This document shows positions 9,096-17,141 of a DNA stretch of 38,496 bases, in pieces; position 1 is the first letter of the stretch; every line of letters starts with the position of its first letter. The DNA comes from an uncultured Clostridia bacterium (GTDB taxonomy: Bacteria; Bacillota; Clostridia; Christensenellales; UBA3700). The notes beneath the pieces are model-generated. The model ran no database searches and had not been told where the DNA came from. It saw nothing but the letters and a program-made list of their open reading frames with translations. Made by a program: the position numbers and the translations under genes. Location: NCBI GenBank assembly GCA_944380395.1, contig CALWHM010000015.1, positions 1 to 38,496 on the forward strand, given 5' to 3'.

Positions 9096-11105
9096 TTATA
9101 AGGTCGCGGTATTTATCGTAACGGTGCCTTTGCCCGAATATACGGGCGTATCCGAACCATCGTAAGTGCCGTCTTCACGGTTTTTTGACCACGTAAGCTC
9201 AATATCTTCTTCAAGCAGGATCACTCCGCCCTCCTTCACGTCTGCAAGCGCGTTTTTGAAGGAAACAGAGCTGTCCGCACGCATAACCATGCCTTCTTTC
9301 ACCACGGTGTAAAGTATATCGTCGCCCTGTTTTGCGGGGGAGGAGTCAAGACCTTCCGCCAGATATGAAGCGTTGCCCGTTTCGGGAGCGTGCGCGGGGT
9401 CGAAGTTGAGGAACTTGCCGCCGTATACGGTCACGGCAGCCGTGCCGTTATTATAGTTTGCGTCTATGCAGTTGATAAGGTATTTAGCGTATTGCGGAGC
9501 TTGCGCTTTCACGGTTTCGGAAAGCTCAAAGTATCCGTCGTTTACGACAAGGGAGCCTTTCTCCACCTGCACGGCGGTTATGGCGCCGTAATAGCTGCCG
9601 CCGTTTATCGTAAGAGCACCGCCGTTTACTATATCAATGCCGTAGCTGTTATTCTCTCCCGCTTCGGGATCTATGCAGCCGTCCCCGTTGATGGTCATTT
9701 CCGCGCCGTCCACGGAGATAATGGCGGGGGTATAGGCGTAAGTTATGCCTTCATATCCGGTAAGGGCTATTTTATAGCCGTTCAGGTTGAGCACGGTATC
9801 ATTGGTCACGATGTTCAAGGGGATAATGCCGCCCGAGGACAAAGTTGTATCCGGGGTGAAGTATATATCGCCCGCAAGGTCTATCGTGCCGCCCAGCTGC
9901 AAAGCCGCCGAAAGTTCAGCCGCCGTATCTACGGGGGAAGAAAGCTCTACCGTACCGTTATTTTCTATTTTCACGTCGCCGCCGCCCGTAACGGAGAGTT
10001 CGGGCACAACCGCGTTTTCTTCAACGGTGAGGTTGGAAGAAGAGTTTGCCGCGGAAGTATCCACGCTCACTTTTTGCACGGAGGCTTTGAGCACGACTAT
10101 AGCGGCGCAATTTGCGGAAGGAATTGCGGCTACGTCGGAAACAACGGCGCTTTCTTCCACCACGGCGCGCCCGCTGTTCAGCGTGAGAGCGCCTATTTTT
10201 CCGTAGACGTGCAAGGACTCGTCCGCCACTGCGGCGCCCGTTATGCTGTTTGCGTCGTTAAACACGTGCATGGTGCCATAGGGTGCGTTCACGGTTATGC
10301 TGCCTGCCTTAAAGCCGCAAATATAGAGCGTCTTTTCGCCGGCAAAGGCTATTTCCACGTCGGAGCTTTCCCATGCGGCGGCGCTGCCGGCAAGCACTAT
10401 CTTATCCCCGTCCTTTACGGAAGAGAGAATGCCGTTCATCTCATCGTTACTTTCCGCAAAGTAGACGCTGCCCGCTTCGCCGTCGGTTACGTTTGCGTTG
10501 CCTTGGACGGCTTCAACGGCAAAACTCAAAGCGCACTGCTTGCCCTTGGCGGAATTGCCCGTGTATGCGGGGAGTTCCACCGTAACGTAAAGCGTTTCTT
10601 CTTCCGTGTTTGCGCTCTTGCTCTCCCAAGCGGTATAGCCGCCCGTATAGTAGTCGTACTCGCCGTCTTCTTGCGTCTTTATGCCCACCAAAAGCTGGTT
10701 GTAAAGCACCTCATCGCCGGAAGAGAGGGCAAAGCTTACGCGCTGTTTGTAGTTCACGTCGGAGTTGTTTGTTATCTTGATTTGAAACTCCGCTTTGTCG
10801 CCGGGCGTCAAGCCGCCCAAAGAAAGCGCGCCGTATTCGTCCACCTTCGCCGTGCCGCCGTTTGCAAAGGCGGTTTGAGAAGCCGCGTTTTCCGCGTTCA
10901 CCACTTCGCCGTTTTCATTGACGGAAGCGGGGGAATACAGGGTCATAGAGTTCGTATCCACAGCCGCGGAAACGCTCACTTTGCCCGAAGTGACGGCTAT
11001 ATCCACGCCGCCGTTATCCGTGAACAACGCGAACGTAGCGCCCGCTATCACCGCAACGCACAGCATAATGGTTATTATCGATATTGCCAATACTTTTTTC
11101 TTCAT
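9096..11105 (-). CDS. Large exported protein: TasA/camelysin-like N-terminus plus beta-solenoid-like repeats
   Basis: The 669 residues start MKKKVLAISIITIMLCV and carry a SipW-type signal with the hallmark AGATFALFTD near residues 21-30. A TasA-like domain follows to about 210 (TPGDKAEFQIKITNNSD; NSAKGKQCALSFAVE). From about 220 on, repeated short strands (AVQVEKGSLVVNDGYFE, LTINGGSYYG) suggest a right-handed beta-solenoid like those of Ig-poor adhesins and polysaccharide-binding proteins. No LPXTG motif or membrane anchor is seen. The protein stops abruptly after VTINTATL, just as a new repeat (FKNALADVKEGGVILLEEDI) begins, so it may be shortened. AAGGAG precedes the start. It is the last gene of the operon and is clearly paralogous to the gene before it. 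Confidence 0.75.
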   Translation of the reverse strand: MKKKVLAISIITIMLCVAVIAGATFALFTDNGGVDIAVTSGKVSVSAAVDTNSMTLYSPASVNENGEVVNAENAASQTAFANGGTAKVDEYGALSLGGLTPGDKAEFQIKITNNSDVNYKQRVSFALSSGDEVLYNQLLVGIKTQEDGEYDYYTGGYTAWESKSANTEEETLYVTVELPAYTGNSAKGKQCALSFAVEAVQGNANVTDGEAGSVYFAESNDEMNGILSSVKDGDKIVLAGSAAAWESSDVEIAFAGEKTLYICGFKAGSITVNAPYGTMHVFNDANSITGAAVADESLHVYGKIGALTLNSGRAVVEESAVVSDVAAIPSANCAAIVVLKASVQKVSVDTSAANSSSNLTVEENAVVPELSVTGGGDVKIENNGTVELSSPVDTAAELSAALQLGGTIDLAGDIYFTPDTTLSSGGIIPLNIVTNDTVLNLNGYKIALTGYEGITYAYTPAIISVDGAEMTINGDGCIDPEAGENNSYGIDIVNGGALTINGGSYYGAITAVQVEKGSLVVNDGYFELSETVKAQAPQYAKYLINCIDANYNNGTAAVTVYGGKFLNFDPAHAPETGNASYLAEGLDSSPAKQGDDILYTVVKEGMVMRADSSVSFKNALADVKEGGVILLEEDIELTWSKNREDGTYDGSDTPVYSGKGTVTINTATL

Positions 11106-11194
11106 AGTTTACTCCTTGGGACATCGTCCCGCGCCCGCAAAGTTTTGCGGGCTTAGATCAGGCTTGAGATCAATTGCTCTCTTTTTTTATAACC

Positions 11195-13018
11195 TTATTC
11201 GCTTATGGCTTTAACCGTGTACCAAATGACATCGTCATGATTTTCAGCCACAGATTTATAACCTTCGGCAAGGTAGCTGCCGCCGAGAGCATCGTCGCCG
11301 TCAGCGGGATCCTGTCCTATAAACGTGCCGCCGCTCACGGTAAAAAAGCCGTTTGCGCCGGTAGTTTGCTGAACGTTGAGGACAAAATATTTGCCGTTAT
11401 ACGGTTTTTCGCTGGCGAAGGTGCCGCCGGTTATCGTAACCTTTGCAGAACCGGAGTAAATGCTTATGCAGCTGTTGCCGGCGCCGTTCTTGTCGCCGCC
11501 GACGTTGTAATAACCGGCTTCGAACAGTACGATTGAGTTGTCGCCGATGTTGACCGCTTGGTTATCGCCGCCTTGTCCGCCGTATATGCCGCCGTCCTTG
11601 GCTTCGGACGAATCGGTAAAGGTAACGTTAGAGTTGCCGAGGACTTGCACGGCTATTTGCGAGCCTACGTTATTGAGCGTATAGCCGTTGAAGTCGATGA
11701 CGACTTTCTTGTCTTTTATAACCAAGCCGGAATCTTTCGAACCCGCAGTGCCGATATTTATATCCGCGCCGAGCGTTACTTTGCTGCTTATTGCGATAGC
11801 TGCAATAAGTTGTTCAGTCGTGGTAATATTGGCGGTCGTCATATCCACGGTAACGTCTTCGCCCGTGGTCATATCCGTAATTTCGCCCTTGTTTTCTATC
11901 ACCACTTCACCCGTGCCTTCCACGGAAAGGGAAGGGAGCACAACGTTTTCAGCCACGGTGAGATTGGTTGAGGAGTTTTGCGCAGAGGCGTCCACGGTAA
12001 CCGCTTCCACGGCGGCGTTTTCCGCAATGTCCACTTTAACGGAGCTGCTTTCGGAAGGAATTGCGGCAAGGCTTTCCACCTTGGCGCCCGCTTCCACGAC
12101 TATGCGCCCGGAGTTCACCTGCGCGGCGCCCACTTCGCCGTAGATGTGCAGGGAGTTGTCCGCAACGATAGCTTTGTCTATCTTCTGAGTATAGTTTATG
12201 TAGTAGTTTATCGTGCCGCCCCGAGCGTTCACGGTGAGCGTGCCCACGTCATAGCCGCAAACGGTGACGGTCTTTTCGCCCTCAAAGGCTATTTCCGCGG
12301 TAGTCCAAGCGGAAGTGCTGCCGTAGAGCACCACCGTTTCGCCGTCCTTGGCGTCCGCAAGGGCTTGGGTCAGAGCTTCCTGATTTTCGGCAAGATATAC
12401 CTTGCTTGCGGAGGCGTCGCCCGCAACGACTGCGTTGCCCTGGACCACTTCCACCGCCAAGTCAAAGCTGCAAGCCTTGCCCTGCGCCGTGCTGCCTGCG
12501 TATTCGGGCAGTTCCACGGTGATATAGCGCGTTTCGCCGTCCGCGGAACCTTCTTCCCAAGAGGAAGTGAAGTTTGAATAGTAGGTGAAGGAAGCCGCCT
12601 CATAGGATTCGGGGTTCTTGCCGCTCACGCCGAAGAGCATTTGGTCGAGCAGGGCGGGATCGGAAGCGCTGCCCGCGCTCATAATAAAGCGCTGTTTTAC
12701 GGCGATGTCGGAATTGTTTTCTATCTTCAATTCTATCACAGCCTTGTCGCCGGGCGTCATTCTGTCCAAAGACACTTTGCCGCCGTCAACGGTCAGCTTG
12801 CCGCCGTTTTCAAAAGCGCCGCCTTCCTGCTTCACACCCATAGAGTAGGTGGCGGTGCTTGTTATTTGCGCCGTAACGTCCAAATCGCCGGAAGTCACGG
12901 CTATGTTGAGATCGCTCTTGTCCGTGAACAAAGCGAACGTGGCGCCCGCTATCACCGCGGCGCACAGCACTATCGCAAGTACGGAAACGAGCAATGCCGA
13001 TTTTTTGGTACGCGTCAT
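11195..13018 (-). CDS. Large exported protein, paralog of the preceding type: TasA-like domain plus beta-solenoid-like repeats
   Basis: The 607 residues begin MTRTKKSALLVSVLAIVLC with the SipW-type signal GATFALFTD near 26-34. The TasA-like domain (TPGDKAVIELKIENNSDIAVKQR; STAQGKACSFDLAVEVVQGN) ends near 205. A middle section matches the 669-residue paralog nearly motif for motif (TVTVCGYDVGTLTVNA; LHIYGEVGAAQVNSGRIVVE). The C-terminal third has strand repeats such as KVTITGGTFASEKPYNG and FFTVSGGTFIGQDPADG. Unlike its paralog it ends smoothly. It likely sits on the cell surface or in an extracellular matrix. AGGAG precedes the start. Confidence 0.75.
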   Translation of the reverse strand: MTRTKKSALLVSVLAIVLCAAVIAGATFALFTDKSDLNIAVTSGDLDVTAQITSTATYSMGVKQEGGAFENGGKLTVDGGKVSLDRMTPGDKAVIELKIENNSDIAVKQRFIMSAGSASDPALLDQMLFGVSGKNPESYEAASFTYYSNFTSSWEEGSADGETRYITVELPEYAGSTAQGKACSFDLAVEVVQGNAVVAGDASASKVYLAENQEALTQALADAKDGETVVLYGSTSAWTTAEIAFEGEKTVTVCGYDVGTLTVNARGGTINYYINYTQKIDKAIVADNSLHIYGEVGAAQVNSGRIVVEAGAKVESLAAIPSESSSVKVDIAENAAVEAVTVDASAQNSSTNLTVAENVVLPSLSVEGTGEVVIENKGEITDMTTGEDVTVDMTTANITTTEQLIAAIAISSKVTLGADINIGTAGSKDSGLVIKDKKVVIDFNGYTLNNVGSQIAVQVLGNSNVTFTDSSEAKDGGIYGGQGGDNQAVNIGDNSIVLFEAGYYNVGGDKNGAGNSCISIYSGSAKVTITGGTFASEKPYNGKYFVLNVQQTTGANGFFTVSGGTFIGQDPADGDDALGGSYLAEGYKSVAENHDDVIWYTVKAISE

Positions 13019-13045
13019 ATCTGTTATCTCCTATAAAAAATTTTC

Positions 13046-13708
13046 TTAGTTGATTGAAAACGCCGCGTTCAGGTCGGAGTCGGACGCGTTGGTCTGACCC
13101 GCGTACACGGTTATCTTCACCGCCGCGCTTGAAGCAAGCGGCTTTACCGCGCCCGTTTCGTCTGCGGGCTGAGTTGCGCTCTTATCCAAAGCCACGGTAA
13201 CGGTAAGGGTGAGCGTTTCGTCGGAAGCAAGTATCAGCGCGCCGCCGCTTTCGCCGCACGCCCACGTGCCCAAAGCAAACTCGCTTTCGCCGTTTTTGAC
13301 GGTGGTTTTGATATACTTCTCCGCGCTCTTGTCGTCGTCTTCACCCAAAGTCAGCAGGGCGTCCACGCGCACTTTGGCGGCGTTTTTGCCCGTGTTCTTT
13401 ACGGTAAGGGTAAAGGTGGCGCTGTCACCGGGGACGATGTTCGTCAAGGTGAGTTTGTTGCCGTTTAATTCGGCTGTGCCGCCCGTGGCAAAGCTGCCTG
13501 CGGTTTCGTTGGGAACGTTATCCGCGTCGGGGCTGAGGCTTGCCGTTGCAAGGCCGCTCAGTTCGGCGGATATATCCACGCTGCCCGTGGTCACGGCAAC
13601 ATCGGAAGAGCGGGTCACCGCGAATAAAGCGAAGGTGGAACCCACTATCACCGCCGCGCACAGCAGGGCGATAAGTCCCGCGGATATAATGGCTTTTTTC
13701 TTACTCAT
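13046..13708 (-). CDS. Camelysin/TasA-like exported protein
   Basis: This 220-residue protein opens MSKKKAIISAGLIALLCAAV and contains GSTFALFAV near residues 22-30, the SipW-dependent signal pattern of the camelysin/TasA family (Peptidase_M73-type). The mature part is one beta-rich domain with VPGDSATFTLTVKNTGKNAAKV near 90-112. No protease motif is visible, so a structural role, as in TasA fibres, is more likely than proteolysis. GAGGAAAG precedes the start. It lies 23 bp after the previous camelysin-like gene and 27 bp before the next, which fits co-transcription. Confidence 0.8.
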   Translation of the reverse strand: MSKKKAIISAGLIALLCAAVIVGSTFALFAVTRSSDVAVTTGSVDISAELSGLATASLSPDADNVPNETAGSFATGGTAELNGNKLTLTNIVPGDSATFTLTVKNTGKNAAKVRVDALLTLGEDDDKSAEKYIKTTVKNGESEFALGTWACGESGGALILASDETLTLTVTVALDKSATQPADETGAVKPLASSAAVKITVYAGQTNASDSDLNAAFSIN

Positions 13709-13731
13709 TTTTCTTTCCTCTTTTTACTTTA

Positions 13732-14406
13732 TTATTGTGCCGTTGACTGCACCGCGTTTATCGTAAAGGTGAATTTCAGCGCCGCGTTCATAATGGTGCT
13801 GCCTGCGGTGCCGTCGTCTGTCACGTCCGCTTCATAGGGCAGTTCCACCTTTATTTTGAACACGTATTTTTCACCCGCAAGCTGAGCGGAATCAAGCTCG
13901 ATTTTGCCGGCGCTTACCACTTCCGCAAGGCTGTCCGTTTTAATGACCGTGCCTTCGGAAGAAGAAACCGTTATCTTCAATTTGCTTGCCAGCAGATATT
14001 CGGGCGTGCCTGCCTTGGGAGCCGTTCCCGTATAGGAAAACACAATGGAGCTGTCAAAAGCCACGTTGCCCGTGTTGGTCAGCTGCAGAGTGGCTTCTTC
14101 CCACACTCCCGGCACGTTGTATACGGGGGAAGACTCATCTCCGAACATAAACGCAGTACCGGAGGCGCTGTCCGTATTCGTGAGATCCACGTCCGCATCC
14201 ACCGTTTTTTCCTTGCCCAAAATGCCGTTTTCGTCCACGAACACGCCTTTAAGGTCGGTGCGAACGAGAGTGGCGTTCAGTTCGCCCGCGGAAAGGTAGG
14301 TTTCCACGTCCGACCGTTTGGAAAACAGCGCGAAGGAAGCCCCCACTACCACTGCCGCGCATACCACGGCTATCACCGCGGATATTAAAATCGCTTTTTT
14401 CTTCAT
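13732..14406 (-). CDS. Camelysin/TasA-like exported protein
   Basis: This 224-residue protein has a SipW-type signal (MKKKAILISAVIAVVCAAVVVGASFALFSKRSD). The mature beta-rich domain contains VEEATLQLTNTGN-like sequence (VWEEATLQLTNTGNVAF) near 100-118 and AEKYVFKIKVELPY-like sequence near 180-192. It is shorter than Bacillus TasA but has the same layout. AAGGAG precedes the start. Sequence drift from the neighbouring 220-residue paralog is large, so the two probably have distinct roles, for example major and minor subunits; that is inference. Confidence 0.78.
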   Translation of the reverse strand: MKKKAILISAVIAVVCAAVVVGASFALFSKRSDVETYLSAGELNATLVRTDLKGVFVDENGILGKEKTVDADVDLTNTDSASGTAFMFGDESSPVYNVPGVWEEATLQLTNTGNVAFDSSIVFSYTGTAPKAGTPEYLLASKLKITVSSSEGTVIKTDSLAEVVSAGKIELDSAQLAGEKYVFKIKVELPYEADVTDDGTAGSTIMNAALKFTFTINAVQSTAQ

Positions 14407-14445
14407 ACTTACTTATCTCCTTCGCCGCAGCTTGCGGCAATTGCT

Positions 14446-15177
14446 TTACGCGTTTTGGCTCAAACGCCTTTGCTGACGCTTTAAGCGGCGCTCTTCTTTC
14501 TTCTTGGCTTCTTTTATCTCACGCTCTTCTTTGAAAGTGGCGTAATTTATGTCCAGAATGCCCTTTATGTATCCCACGGAAGCGGCGTTTTCCACGCGTA
14601 CGTCCACGGGCTTTTCACGCAGGGAAAGGGAGTTTTCGTCCGCATATCCCGCAAGCGTGTTGTTCTGCACCTGCATACGCGCAACTATCTTTCCGCGGCG
14701 CAGCAGAATGCGCACCAACTGCTTTTTGCCGTAATATACGCACGCGGCGTGGCCGTTGGTCACGAGCTTTGCGCCCTCGAACTTCTGCGCGTAAGCCAAA
14801 ATGTCGTCCACGTACCGCTTTTCGTCGGGGGAAAGCGCGGCGTAAGCCTCGGGATAGGGGACGGCGGTGTTGCGGCGCAGCACCACTTCTCCTTCCTGCA
14901 CGGTAGTGGCGGCGGTTTCTGCTGCCGCAGGCTGCACGGCGGAAGCGGTTACCTGAGAAGCAGGCTCCTGAACGGGACGGGCGGCTGCCGCCTGCGCCAC
15001 GTATTTTGAAGAGCTTTCTCCCACGGGCACCAGCACATAATCCGTGTCGTCTATGGAAACCACTTTGCCTTTAACGTTCTTGGGTCTGCGCACGGCGGAT
15101 ACCGTAAACCAGATTATCAGCAGCACCGCTATGCCTATGACTATTGCCATACATGCGATAAACAAAGACTCAGTCAT
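14446..15177 (-). CDS. Single-pass membrane protein with a conserved C-terminal domain, unknown function
   Basis: The 243 residues comprise one N-terminal transmembrane helix (about 8-30), a short basic stretch, an Ala/Pro/Gln-rich linker (about 60-95), a compact domain at about 105-215 and a very basic helical end (KEEREIKEAKKKEERRLKRQQRR). The domain has LSPDEKRYVDDILAYAQKF, LVRILLRRGKIVARM and REKPVDVRVEN. I cannot name its family. The basic region after the helix argues that the domain faces the cytoplasm. Its start overlaps the end of sipW by eight bases, with AAGGAG inside sipW, so it is co-translated with the peptidase. A role in assembling or regulating SipW export is a reasonable guess. 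Confidence 0.75.
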   Translation of the reverse strand: MTESLFIACMAIVIGIAVLLIIWFTVSAVRRPKNVKGKVVSIDDTDYVLVPVGESSSKYVAQAAAARPVQEPASQVTASAVQPAAAETAATTVQEGEVVLRRNTAVPYPEAYAALSPDEKRYVDDILAYAQKFEGAKLVTNGHAACVYYGKKQLVRILLRRGKIVARMQVQNNTLAGYADENSLSLREKPVDVRVENAASVGYIKGILDINYATFKEEREIKEAKKKEERRLKRQQRRLSQNA

Positions 15178-15862
15178 TGTTTTCTTCTCTCCTTTTCAGT
15201 TCGTCCAATTCGCGGCGCAGGCGCTCTATTTCCCGCTCCCTGTCCTCGGCTTCGGACTGACTTTTTTGCTTTTTATCCTTGCTCACCAAAAAGGCGATGC
15301 GGAATATTTCGTATATCATTATCAGCGCGGCGGGCACTATCAGGCACACCACTATCCCCGTGGAGGAGGTGAGGAAGGTCAGGATCGCGCCCAGCGGATA
15401 ATTGGAACCCGTGACCGCGCCTATCACGTTCTCCGCCTTCACGGGCGAAGCGTCCGCGGAGTCGTTCGCGTCGCCCTTGGTGATAAAGGTTATCTCTCCG
15501 CCTTCTTCCCGCACCTCTATTATGCGGTGCGTTATCACCATTCCCGTTTCCCCGGGAGCTAAGGAGCGGAAAGTTATTATGTCGCCTTCTTTCAAAGAGC
15601 GGATAAATTCGTCCGCCTGCTCCTTATCTTCGGGGACAGTTTTAATCGCTATCACGGAGTGCGTGCGAATGGAGTCCTCCGCTTCTCCTTCCATTGAGCC
15701 TGTCAGCACCAGTCTTATCTGCGTGCCGCCCACGGTGAGCGTCTGCCCCTGCACGCGGTATCCCACCGCCACGCCCAGAGCGCATATCGCCGCGATAAGT
15801 ATTAAAGCCACAATTACCGCGGAAATGACGTTCCACGCCTTTTTTACCTTTGTCTTGTCCAT
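15170..15862 (-). CDS. sipW: Signal peptidase I of the SipW (ER/archaeal) type
   Basis: SipW removes the signal peptides of TasA/camelysin-type exported proteins at the outer face of the membrane. This 230-residue protein has an N-terminal membrane segment (about 13-34) and the catalytic Ser56 in LTGSMEG. Where bacterial SPases have a Lys it has His112 in MVITHRI, the hallmark of the ER-type class. Conserved Asp residues lie in GDANDSADAS (131-139). A second membrane segment (about 168-190) precedes a charged helical tail (DREREIERLRRELDELKRR). The ribosome site is weak (AAAGGG). Its position after a small TasA-like gene and before camelysin genes matches the tapA-sipW-tasA arrangement. Confidence 0.93.
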   Translation of the reverse strand: MDKTKVKKAWNVISAVIVALILIAAICALGVAVGYRVQGQTLTVGGTQIRLVLTGSMEGEAEDSIRTHSVIAIKTVPEDKEQADEFIRSLKEGDIITFRSLAPGETGMVITHRIIEVREEGGEITFITKGDANDSADASPVKAENVIGAVTGSNYPLGAILTFLTSSTGIVVCLIVPAALIMIYEIFRIAFLVSKDKKQKSQSEAEDREREIERLRRELDELKRREENND

Positions 15863-15900
15863 TGTCTTTTAACCCTTTGTCCCTTTTCCCTTTTGACTTC

Positions 15901-16368
15901 TCAGCTGTCTTTTTCCTGCAAGGTGCAGTGCGCGGTTATCGAGCAGCTCTTGCCCTGCGCGGAGTTGTCCGCGTCCTGCGGCAGGGTGTATGTAACGGAG
16001 AATGTAACGTCGCCGCTCACTTCCGCCGTGTATATCACGCCGCGGCAATACAGATAGTTCCCGTCGTACAGCTGCTTTCCGTCCGCAACTATCGTCACGT
16101 TCAGGTGCCCGCTCAAATCGGGGGAGTGCCCGCCCGTCAGAGATATTGTCAGCACCGCGGACTTGGGCGCCTTTGCCGTATATTCCTGAGTGTACGACTG
16201 ACCGGGGAGCAGTCCTTCTATGCGCGCGGGATCGGCAAACCCGTCGCCCGCGCCGTCCAAAGTGAGGTCGGAGCCTTCGTTCACCATAACGTACGCCACG
16301 CCCACGCAGGTTGCCGCTATCACCGCTATCAAAGCCGTTATCAAAACCGCCGTCGCTTTTTTACTCAT
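15901..16368 (-). CDS. Small TasA-like exported protein, first gene of the SipW operon
   Basis: This 155-residue product starts MSKKATAVLITALIAVIAATCVGVAYV, a short basic segment and hydrophobic core, but without the FALFTD box of its siblings. The mature part keeps their core motifs: LLPGQSYTQEYT near 70, and NSAQGKSCSITAHCTL at the end, the counterpart of NSAKGKQCALSF in the large proteins. It is therefore a single minimal TasA-like domain. The start at 16368 is preferred over 16434 because the signal begins there, although only a weak AAGAAG site precedes it. It sits where TapA sits in Bacillus, so a minor or anchoring subunit is plausible. Confidence 0.7.
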   Translation of the reverse strand: MSKKATAVLITALIAVIAATCVGVAYVMVNEGSDLTLDGAGDGFADPARIEGLLPGQSYTQEYTAKAPKSAVLTISLTGGHSPDLSGHLNVTIVADGKQLYDGNYLYCRGVIYTAEVSGDVTFSVTYTLPQDADNSAQGKSCSITAHCTLQEKDS

Positions 16369-16775
16369 CTTCTTGTTCAGTCCCCGCGCGCTTTGACAAA
16401 TATTTTTCAAGTGCGTTTTATGCCTCAAATGCAAAACGCATTTTTAATATTCGTTAAAGCCGCTTATATTGTTGCGCTGTTATTTCGCCTTGTTTGCAAT
16501 GTTAAGCTGAAAACTTTACATTTTGCTTACATTGTCCGCCGTTTTCCGTCCGTCCGTGTAAAAACACAAGGCTTTCGGCTCGGCTTTTTCTGCGGGAGCC
16601 GCCCGCTCCCTTCTTACTTGCCGCAGTCGGCGCCCATTTGAGGCGGCAGCCTGCGGTGAAACCCTGCTCTCAGCAACTTTTCTTCCCATATGCGCTTTAC
16701 GCGCGCAAACGGAAATGAAAAAAGGGAGAACGCACTCCTTGTTCCCACATTTCATAACGTCGTCCCCTTAATTTC
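16369..16775 (-). ncRNA. Long structured 5' leader (or separate small RNA) of the SipW operon
   Basis: The predicted transcript start near 16775 leaves about 400 nt before the first gene. Minus-strand structures seen: a terminator-like hairpin with U6 (arms 16741-16746 and 16724-16731, U-run 16718-16723); TGCGC/GCGCA hairpin near 16690-16706; a strong hairpin with CCGCAG/CTGCGG ends (16621-16656); GGGAGC/GCTCCC (16594-16610). A closing helix ACAAGG (16737-16742) with CCTTGT (16566-16571) bounds a 177-nt element. CTCCCTT of the early hairpin could pair instead with AAGGGAG at 16606-16612, giving two exclusive folds as in attenuators. I could not match it to TPP, c-di-GMP, T-box, cobalamin or SAM consensus; a 6S-like RNA is another possibility. 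Confidence 0.45.
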
Positions 16776-16781
16776 GCAACC

Positions 16782-16810
16782 ATATTAGCACAAAGGATAC
16801 GCGCCGTCAA
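16782..16810 (-). promoter_or_regulatory. Sigma-A promoter of the SipW/camelysin operon
   Basis: On the minus strand TTGACG (16810-16805) and TAATAT (16787-16782) are exactly 17 bp apart. This is the best consensus promoter in the window and places the start near 16775. Confidence 0.8.
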
Positions 16811-16891
16811 GCGTTTTTCAAACAAAGACCTAAAATTTTAGTTAAATTATATAATGTGTTATGGGTGGGGGTAAGACTTCACCCGGTTTTT

Positions 16892-16926
16892 GCGGAATTT
16901 CGGAAAAATTTTTTCTGAAATTCCGC
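16892..16926. repeat. 35-bp near-perfect palindrome in the divergent intergenic region
   Basis: Arms GCGGAATTTC (16892-16901) and GAAATTCCGC (16917-16926) are perfect. Pairing continues through the centre (GGAAAAA with TTTTTCT, one G-T) to give 17 consecutive pairs around a single base. It lies between the minus-strand SipW promoter and the plus-strand iol promoter region, so it could be a boundary hairpin or a regulator site. A small GCGC-AA-GCGC hairpin follows at 16924-16933. Confidence 0.75.
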
Positions 16927-17049
16927 GCAAGCGCGGGAGAATCGCCGCGCTTTAATCGACATTACTTTTCGCCGCCTGCGTTTAAGTAAAATTAAAGGCT
17001 CAAAAATTTTATGGACAAAACGGTTACGTGCGCCCATTATATAAGATTT

Positions 17050-17087
17050 TTGCCATTGCGCTTTTATATATAATAATGTATCATTAT
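17050..17087 (+). promoter_or_regulatory. Probable iol promoter with an overlapping palindromic operator
   Basis: TTGCCA (17050-17055) is followed at 16 bp by AATAAT (17072-17077); TTGCGC (17056) with TATCAT (17079) at 17 bp is an alternative. Across this lies the palindrome ATAATG-TAT-CATTAT (17073-17087), well placed to let a repressor block initiation. No iolR gene is in the window. Confidence 0.45.
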
Positions 17088-17141
17088 CTATATAAGGACC
17101 GCGGATAATTTGAGCGTTCGCGGACTTTTCGGAGGAAAATT

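Follow-up and report, generated by a model that had tools for sequence, protein, structure and literature searches.

A conserved SipW operon of an uncultured Clostridia bacterium that most likely builds a TasA-type surface fibre with several subunits

Surface fibres exported with a dedicated signal peptidase, SipW, are known from several Bacillota. In Bacillus subtilis, TasA subunits are joined by an N-terminal donor strand and TapA has been proposed as the starter (PMC9674648, PMC10151520). Bacillus cereus uses TasA, CalY and an exported helper, CapP, together with SipW (PMC13082335); CapP, a DUF4047 protein, has its own transcript according to PMC13082335 and belongs to one operon according to PMC10151520. 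In Clostridium perfringens, BsaA from the sipW-bsaABCRSD locus polymerises without sortase (PMC7395162). In both Bacillus and Clostridium there is precedent for a single SipW that serves several filament proteins. All comparisons with these papers refer to the parts of them that were available. Here, a SipW operon is described on contig CALWHM010000015.1 (C15; 38,496 nucleotides, its full length being referred to as the window) from the draft genome of an uncultured Clostridia bacterium of the order Christensenellales (1.78 Mb, 66 contigs, 88% complete). Seven consecutive genes (A, sipW, D, B, C, E and F), running on the minus strand from 16368 to 9096, make up an operon that is real and conserved and whose most likely product is a TasA-type surface fibre of several subunits.

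Like tapA-sipW-tasA of B. subtilis, the operon carries a dedicated SipW, TasA-like subunits and a small exported-side gene before sipW, yet its front gene (A) lacks a SipW cleavage motif, it holds an extra gene (D) and four SipW-type substrates, and TasA-like heads are joined to long beta-helices (PMC9674648, PMC10151520). With sipW-tasA, capP (bc1280) and calY of B. cereus it shares one SipW, several TasA-like proteins and a putative assembly helper; however, D is a membrane protein whose domain is probably inside the cell, unlike the exported CapP, and the B. cereus system as described includes no beta-helix subunits (PMC13082335, PMC10151520). The C. perfringens locus, also a clostridial SipW operon of several genes, codes for a polymer-forming subunit along with further secreted proteins and is sortase-independent. 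It differs by a two-component system and by the lack, as described, of a counterpart to A or D (PMC7395162), and the BsaA family model TIGR04090 matches B only weakly (E 0.027). A D-like gene, an uncut TasA-like anchor and TasA-like heads on beta-helices appear in none of these three descriptions. What sets the operon apart from the known systems is an A protein lacking a cut site, the additional gene D and the beta-helix subunits.

The intergenic gaps are, in operon order, 38, −8, 39, 23, 27 and 89 nt, a Shine-Dalgarno-like stretch (judged by eye) precedes at least five of the seven genes, and gene A starts with the ATG at 16368. A first-pass annotation, made from the letters of this DNA alone, had proposed sipW with five SipW substrates, all on one strand with small gaps; the strand, the gaps (−8 to 89 nt) and sipW were borne out, and the six genes it listed stand, with D, which is not a substrate, omitted from that list. 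The sipW product scores 93.6 bits against TIGR02228 (cut-off 51.85) and 121.4 bits against the narrower Bacillus SipW model NF046067, which is below the cut-off of 190. Its residues S56, H112 and D131 are invariant across four genomes; such a serine/histidine/aspartate set, in place of the serine-lysine pair, is what we take to be the mark of an endoplasmic reticulum (ER)-type signal peptidase. The second TIGR02228 match in the same genome, on contig C33, is weaker and falls below the cut-off.

The signals of B, C, E and F end in the form G-[AS]-[ST]-F-A-L-F. In related operons, a wider SipW-type motif, whose pattern was devised for this analysis, was found in 14 of 14 B proteins, 30 of 33 TasA-like proteins (the three without it being two in L106 and one in L112) and 0 of 12 A proteins, as compared with 1 of 144 other called genes of the same loci, where the scan covered the first 130 residues of stop-to-stop frames for the relatives and the first 60 for the controls, the control set includes wrong-strand gene calls from L106 (a locus whose gene strand was settled by six-frame profile search), and L083 and L084, which share N-termini and lengths, are not independent. 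Judged by these signals, the clear SipW substrates number four (B, C, E and F), and of the five claimed earlier A drops out.

The substrates are related to one another and to TasA. With gene C as query, the only matches in its own genome were C, E, F and B, and C matched the TasA model NF046066 with an E-value of 2.9e-4 (20.4 bits). Against TIGR04088, the DNA search gave 22.4 for gene E, 19.0 for gene F (cut-off 19) and 14.1 for gene B, with C and A not listed, while the protein search gave 16.7 for E and 12.2 for F, both below the cut-off, with B and C not listed; in the whole genome at E ≤10 this model had four matches, namely E, F, B and a weak one elsewhere. For the predicted structure of E, the TasA fibre is the first match in the Protein Data Bank (PDB) by Foldseek E-value (1.2e-3), which assigns a TasA-like fold to the mature domain of the model; a fold unrelated to TasA, which would have spoken against the earlier proposal, was not seen. 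Behind the TasA-like head, the model forms a parallel beta-helix that finds its closest structural counterpart in tapirin (6n2b); a related entry, 4wa0, names a possible adhesin in its title. The predicted local distance difference test (pLDDT) score is mostly <60 beyond residue 380 or so, and no fold is claimed for that part. F is 38% identical to E, which supports a beta-helix in F as well; thus the two large beta-solenoid-like proteins claimed earlier are upheld for E by its model and for F solely through this identity. F ends about where its relative in L034 (838 aa) continues with a second beta-helix stretch that has a counterpart in E, suggesting a past exchange between the two paralogues. 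PDB sequence searches gave 16 chance-like matches with the C profile and four weak ones with the E/F profile (none used), and no match with the B profile.

For genes E (E-value 0.0027) and F (E-value 0.0015), the top match, albeit a weak one, is to Pfam M73 (camelysin), which would favour camelysin-type metallopeptidases, that is, secreted proteases and not fibre parts, as the identity of the substrates. All four M73 matches, however, are below the cut-off (PF12389; best 18.9 bits versus 22.5) and are confined to residues 3–51, which is the signal region; as they cover the signal alone, the protease explanation was rejected and is considered very improbable. TapA identity was also rejected, both for B (TIGR04087, 14.8 bits, E 0.017; cut-off 80), which directly follows D in the core operons read, and for A (no TIGR04087 match listed).

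Gene A is itself related to the TasA-like proteins. Based on nine A proteins from three families, mature A matched the TasA-like profile at 93.0% (E 3.5e-7) and B at 96.0% (E 4.2e-9), whereas in controls mature A and B matched D and SipW at ≤0.5% and four full-length controls stayed at ≤16.4%; with shorter profiles (A versus C, 9.3%; A versus E, 54%) no clear link was found, the relationship being seen with the longer alignments only. The match begins at position 63 of the mature TasA-like profile and position 24 of A (both from rough cut points), and by this alignment A would be about 40 residues shorter ahead of the shared part, where TasA has its donor strand. In all nine A proteins, positive charge precedes and negative charge follows the membrane helix. 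Since the SipW motif was found in 0 of 12 A proteins, with an unusual cut site still possible, we infer that A is an anchored, uncut TasA-like protein, and its role as the base of a fibre is put forward as a proposal.

An 8-nt overlap between gene D and sipW is seen in each of the four genus genomes with the operon. The predicted structure of D consists of one N-terminal membrane helix, a low-confidence linker, an alpha/beta domain and a basic C-terminal helix (pLDDT <50 at residues 30–56, 58–104 and 173–187), and the alpha/beta domain and C-terminal helix probably face the cytoplasm. A PDB sequence search with the D profile gave no match; two viral-contig scans revealed no relative of D or SipW, and a PHROGs search had one weak match, to D (E 0.0081). 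Relatives of D also occur among type IV pilin-like genes with an FTITEL motif (L116:4783-12497, L118:6816-13651 and L120:9453-13280), which links the D family to two kinds of surface filament. In L108:12420-13223 and L109:6032-6808, D and sipW stand beside other exported proteins whose signal is of the STT[FL]AKY type and which lack a TasA-like match, an arrangement that is a further type of SipW locus. Instead of helping in assembly or export, D might be tethered to the membrane as a regulator of the operon, sensing precursors not yet cut or binding nucleic acid; we consider this rather unlikely. Equally tentative is a joint proposal for A and D, in which A, anchored and lacking most of the donor-strand stretch, would accept a strand only and thus form a fixed base, while D would be a general cytoplasmic-side helper that also serves an unrelated pilin-like filament; we think it rather unlikely that both parts are right.

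The gene order is kept in a portion of the relatives, as the first-pass annotation had suggested checking. Among 60 genomes (own genome included), 29 had a SipW match at E ≤0.001, mostly distant; within the genus, SipW was present in G002 (69%), G005 (71%) and G003 (61%), with no match at that threshold in G001, G004 and G006, and D showed the identical split (4 of 7, own genome included). A survey of 397 genomes of the order, a sample of a larger group, found D in 41 (E ≤1e-6), and the D places were viewed in 36 of these (G028, G031, G033, G035 and G069 being left out, and G015, G022 and G065 being viewed at some of their D places only). The core arrangement A-sipW-D-B-TasA-like, on one strand, was found in 10 of the 36 (G000, G002, G003, G393, G285, G394, G378, G257, G297 and G186), variant loci in two (G349, with a second sipW; G008, D-B-TasA-like-TasA-like-sipW with no A found), D plus sipW without a TasA-like match in two (G223 and G369) and D among pilin-like genes in three (G330, G239 and G381), with the remaining 19 having none of these arrangements in the stretch read. 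Other searches added G005 (core) and G060 (D-B-TasA-like-TasA-like on a 4.6-kb contig, no sipW in view). Beyond the genus, the core is thus present in seven genomes of two other families and variants in three. Among 391 genomes sampled from the class, which include some of the order, and 398 sampled from the phylum, the own genome was the sole match for D; in the samples searched, D is found solely in this order, lack of a match at the thresholds of the D and SipW surveys being no proof of absence.

Within the genus, A-sipW-D-B-C is in identical order in all four genomes with the operon and is followed by one short TasA-like gene in three and by one or two large ones in four. These large proteins differ in length (607 to 1180 aa) and tail, a variability expected of single secreted adhesins that share SipW export and do not polymerise, their TasA-like head acting as a folding or attachment domain. 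The same is suggested by L107, L115 and L119, where the single TasA-like protein after B is large. Yet the short gene C is kept beside the large ones in 4 of 4 genus genomes with the operon, the head of E resembles a known donor-strand fibre subunit, and a motif-less TasA-like A is present in all 12 A-bearing loci viewed, so that single adhesins are considered an unlikely explanation.

The reading preferred here, with moderate confidence in it as a whole, is a fibre of the TasA donor-strand type that has its base (A) held in the membrane, together with adhesive subunits (E and F) and a helper (D). B, C, E and F would be exported through Sec and, as known for the family, cleaved by SipW within the G-[AS]-[ST]-F-A-L-F region; the cut would free an N-terminal strand that inserts into the next subunit, as in TasA. 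C would be the plain subunit, whereas in E and F the beta-helix would stand off the fibre and may bind a surface or polysaccharide. A would retain its membrane helix and form the base, B may start or cap growth in a TapA-like manner, and D, anchored in the membrane with an inward-facing domain, would help from the cytoplasmic side. The analysis itself shows the gene order, the signals, the folds predicted for E and D, and that A has no cleavage motif; polymerisation, adhesion and the roles of A, B and D are what we infer.

Transcription as one unit is consistent with one partly conserved promoter-like site before A (TTGACG-17-TAATAT with a TG; 9 of 12 positions). In an alignment of the four genus genomes with the operon, TTGAC of the −35 is invariant and the −10 is variable, and the pattern scan of the region found 9 sites versus 4.9 expected by chance; the one good promoter of the first-pass annotation is upheld within these limits. 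A block upstream of this site, conserved in the four genomes, may be a regulator or UP-element site. The leader before A spans about 400 bases and aligns poorly beyond its first part. A possible hairpin-like stretch with a U-run is located just after the promoter (16715–16775) and also in some relatives; its folding z-scores were weak (−0.41 in the window, −1.94 in L034 and −1.04 in L035) and an attenuator was rejected. A riboswitch was rejected as well, with no Rfam match reaching the gathering score anywhere in the window and seven matches in 16360–17140, all at chance level. In three genomes of another family, small XRE-like regulator genes (assigned by eye only) are divergent in front of the operon (L110:6893-7207, L115:7640-7972 and L119:7203-7574), possibly indicating SinR-like control. 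A 79-aa open reading frame (ORF) at 16755–16516 had no match in scans with Pfam and family models, and no tRNA was found in a scan of the window. The features are listed in Table 1.

Table 1. Features of the SipW operon and its upstream region (window coordinates).
Feature	Position	Strand	Description	Basis
Upstream block	16831..16874	−	TTAC, C-rich run, CATAAC ... TTTAACTAAAATTTT; putative function	Four-genome alignment
Promoter-like site	16782..16810	−	Sigma-70-type, extended −10	Pattern scan and four-genome alignment
Leader	16369..16775	−	Long, before gene A; possible hairpin with U-run	Weak folding statistics
Gene A	15901..16368	−	155 aa; N-terminal membrane helix and small TasA-like domain, without SipW cleavage motif	
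sipW	15170..15862	−	230 aa; ER-type signal peptidase, charged C-terminal tail	
Gene D	14446..15177	−	243 aa; one N-terminal membrane helix, alpha/beta domain, basic C-terminal helix	
Gene B	13732..14406	−	224 aa; SipW-type signal, TasA-like protein	
Gene C	13046..13708	−	220 aa; SipW-type signal, minimal TasA-like subunit	
Gene E	11195..13018	−	607 aa; SipW-type signal, TasA-like head then parallel beta-helix	
Gene F	9096..11105	−	669 aa; SipW-type signal; paralogue of E, same plan by homology	

SipW-like peptidases of relatives in the same family also occur in CoCoPALM loci (McrBC-like genes plus signal peptidases; PMC11090510), but those loci, as described in the available parts of that paper, pair two peptidases with DUF2357 and AAA_5 genes, unlike the operon here, and no AAA_5 or DUF2357 Pfam match was found among the eight window ORFs scanned. 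Six loci from other genomes of the family and order (L037, L038, L039, L041, L043 and L044; for example, L038:9636-16110) hold two SipW-like peptidases; with a DUF2357 gene in five of the six tested and an AAA_5-like gene in five (one over the cut-off), they fit the CoCoPALM systems already described in PMC11090510. L040, L042 and L045 resemble these loci by appearance, Pfam having been run on the other six. In the literature, the present gene set was not found described among the matches listed, most subscription journals and bioRxiv being outside the coverage; under the same coverage, no paper was found that joins Christensenell* with SipW, and for Christensenell* with TasA none of the matches listed concerns the tasA gene by title. 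The first-pass annotation had named the operon as a candidate for an undescribed assembly system; a SipW that serves several filament proteins, however, is already on record.

How TasA-type sortase-free fibres are anchored on the cell is not settled in the literature, as far as its available parts go, and A, a TasA-like protein that apparently keeps its membrane helix and is encoded directly before sipW, is a testable candidate for the fibre base. D, a partner whose family has not been named, is common to SipW loci and pilin-like loci. The TasA-like heads and tapirin-like beta-helix of the operon point to a concrete means by which a group of uncultured bacteria may adhere.
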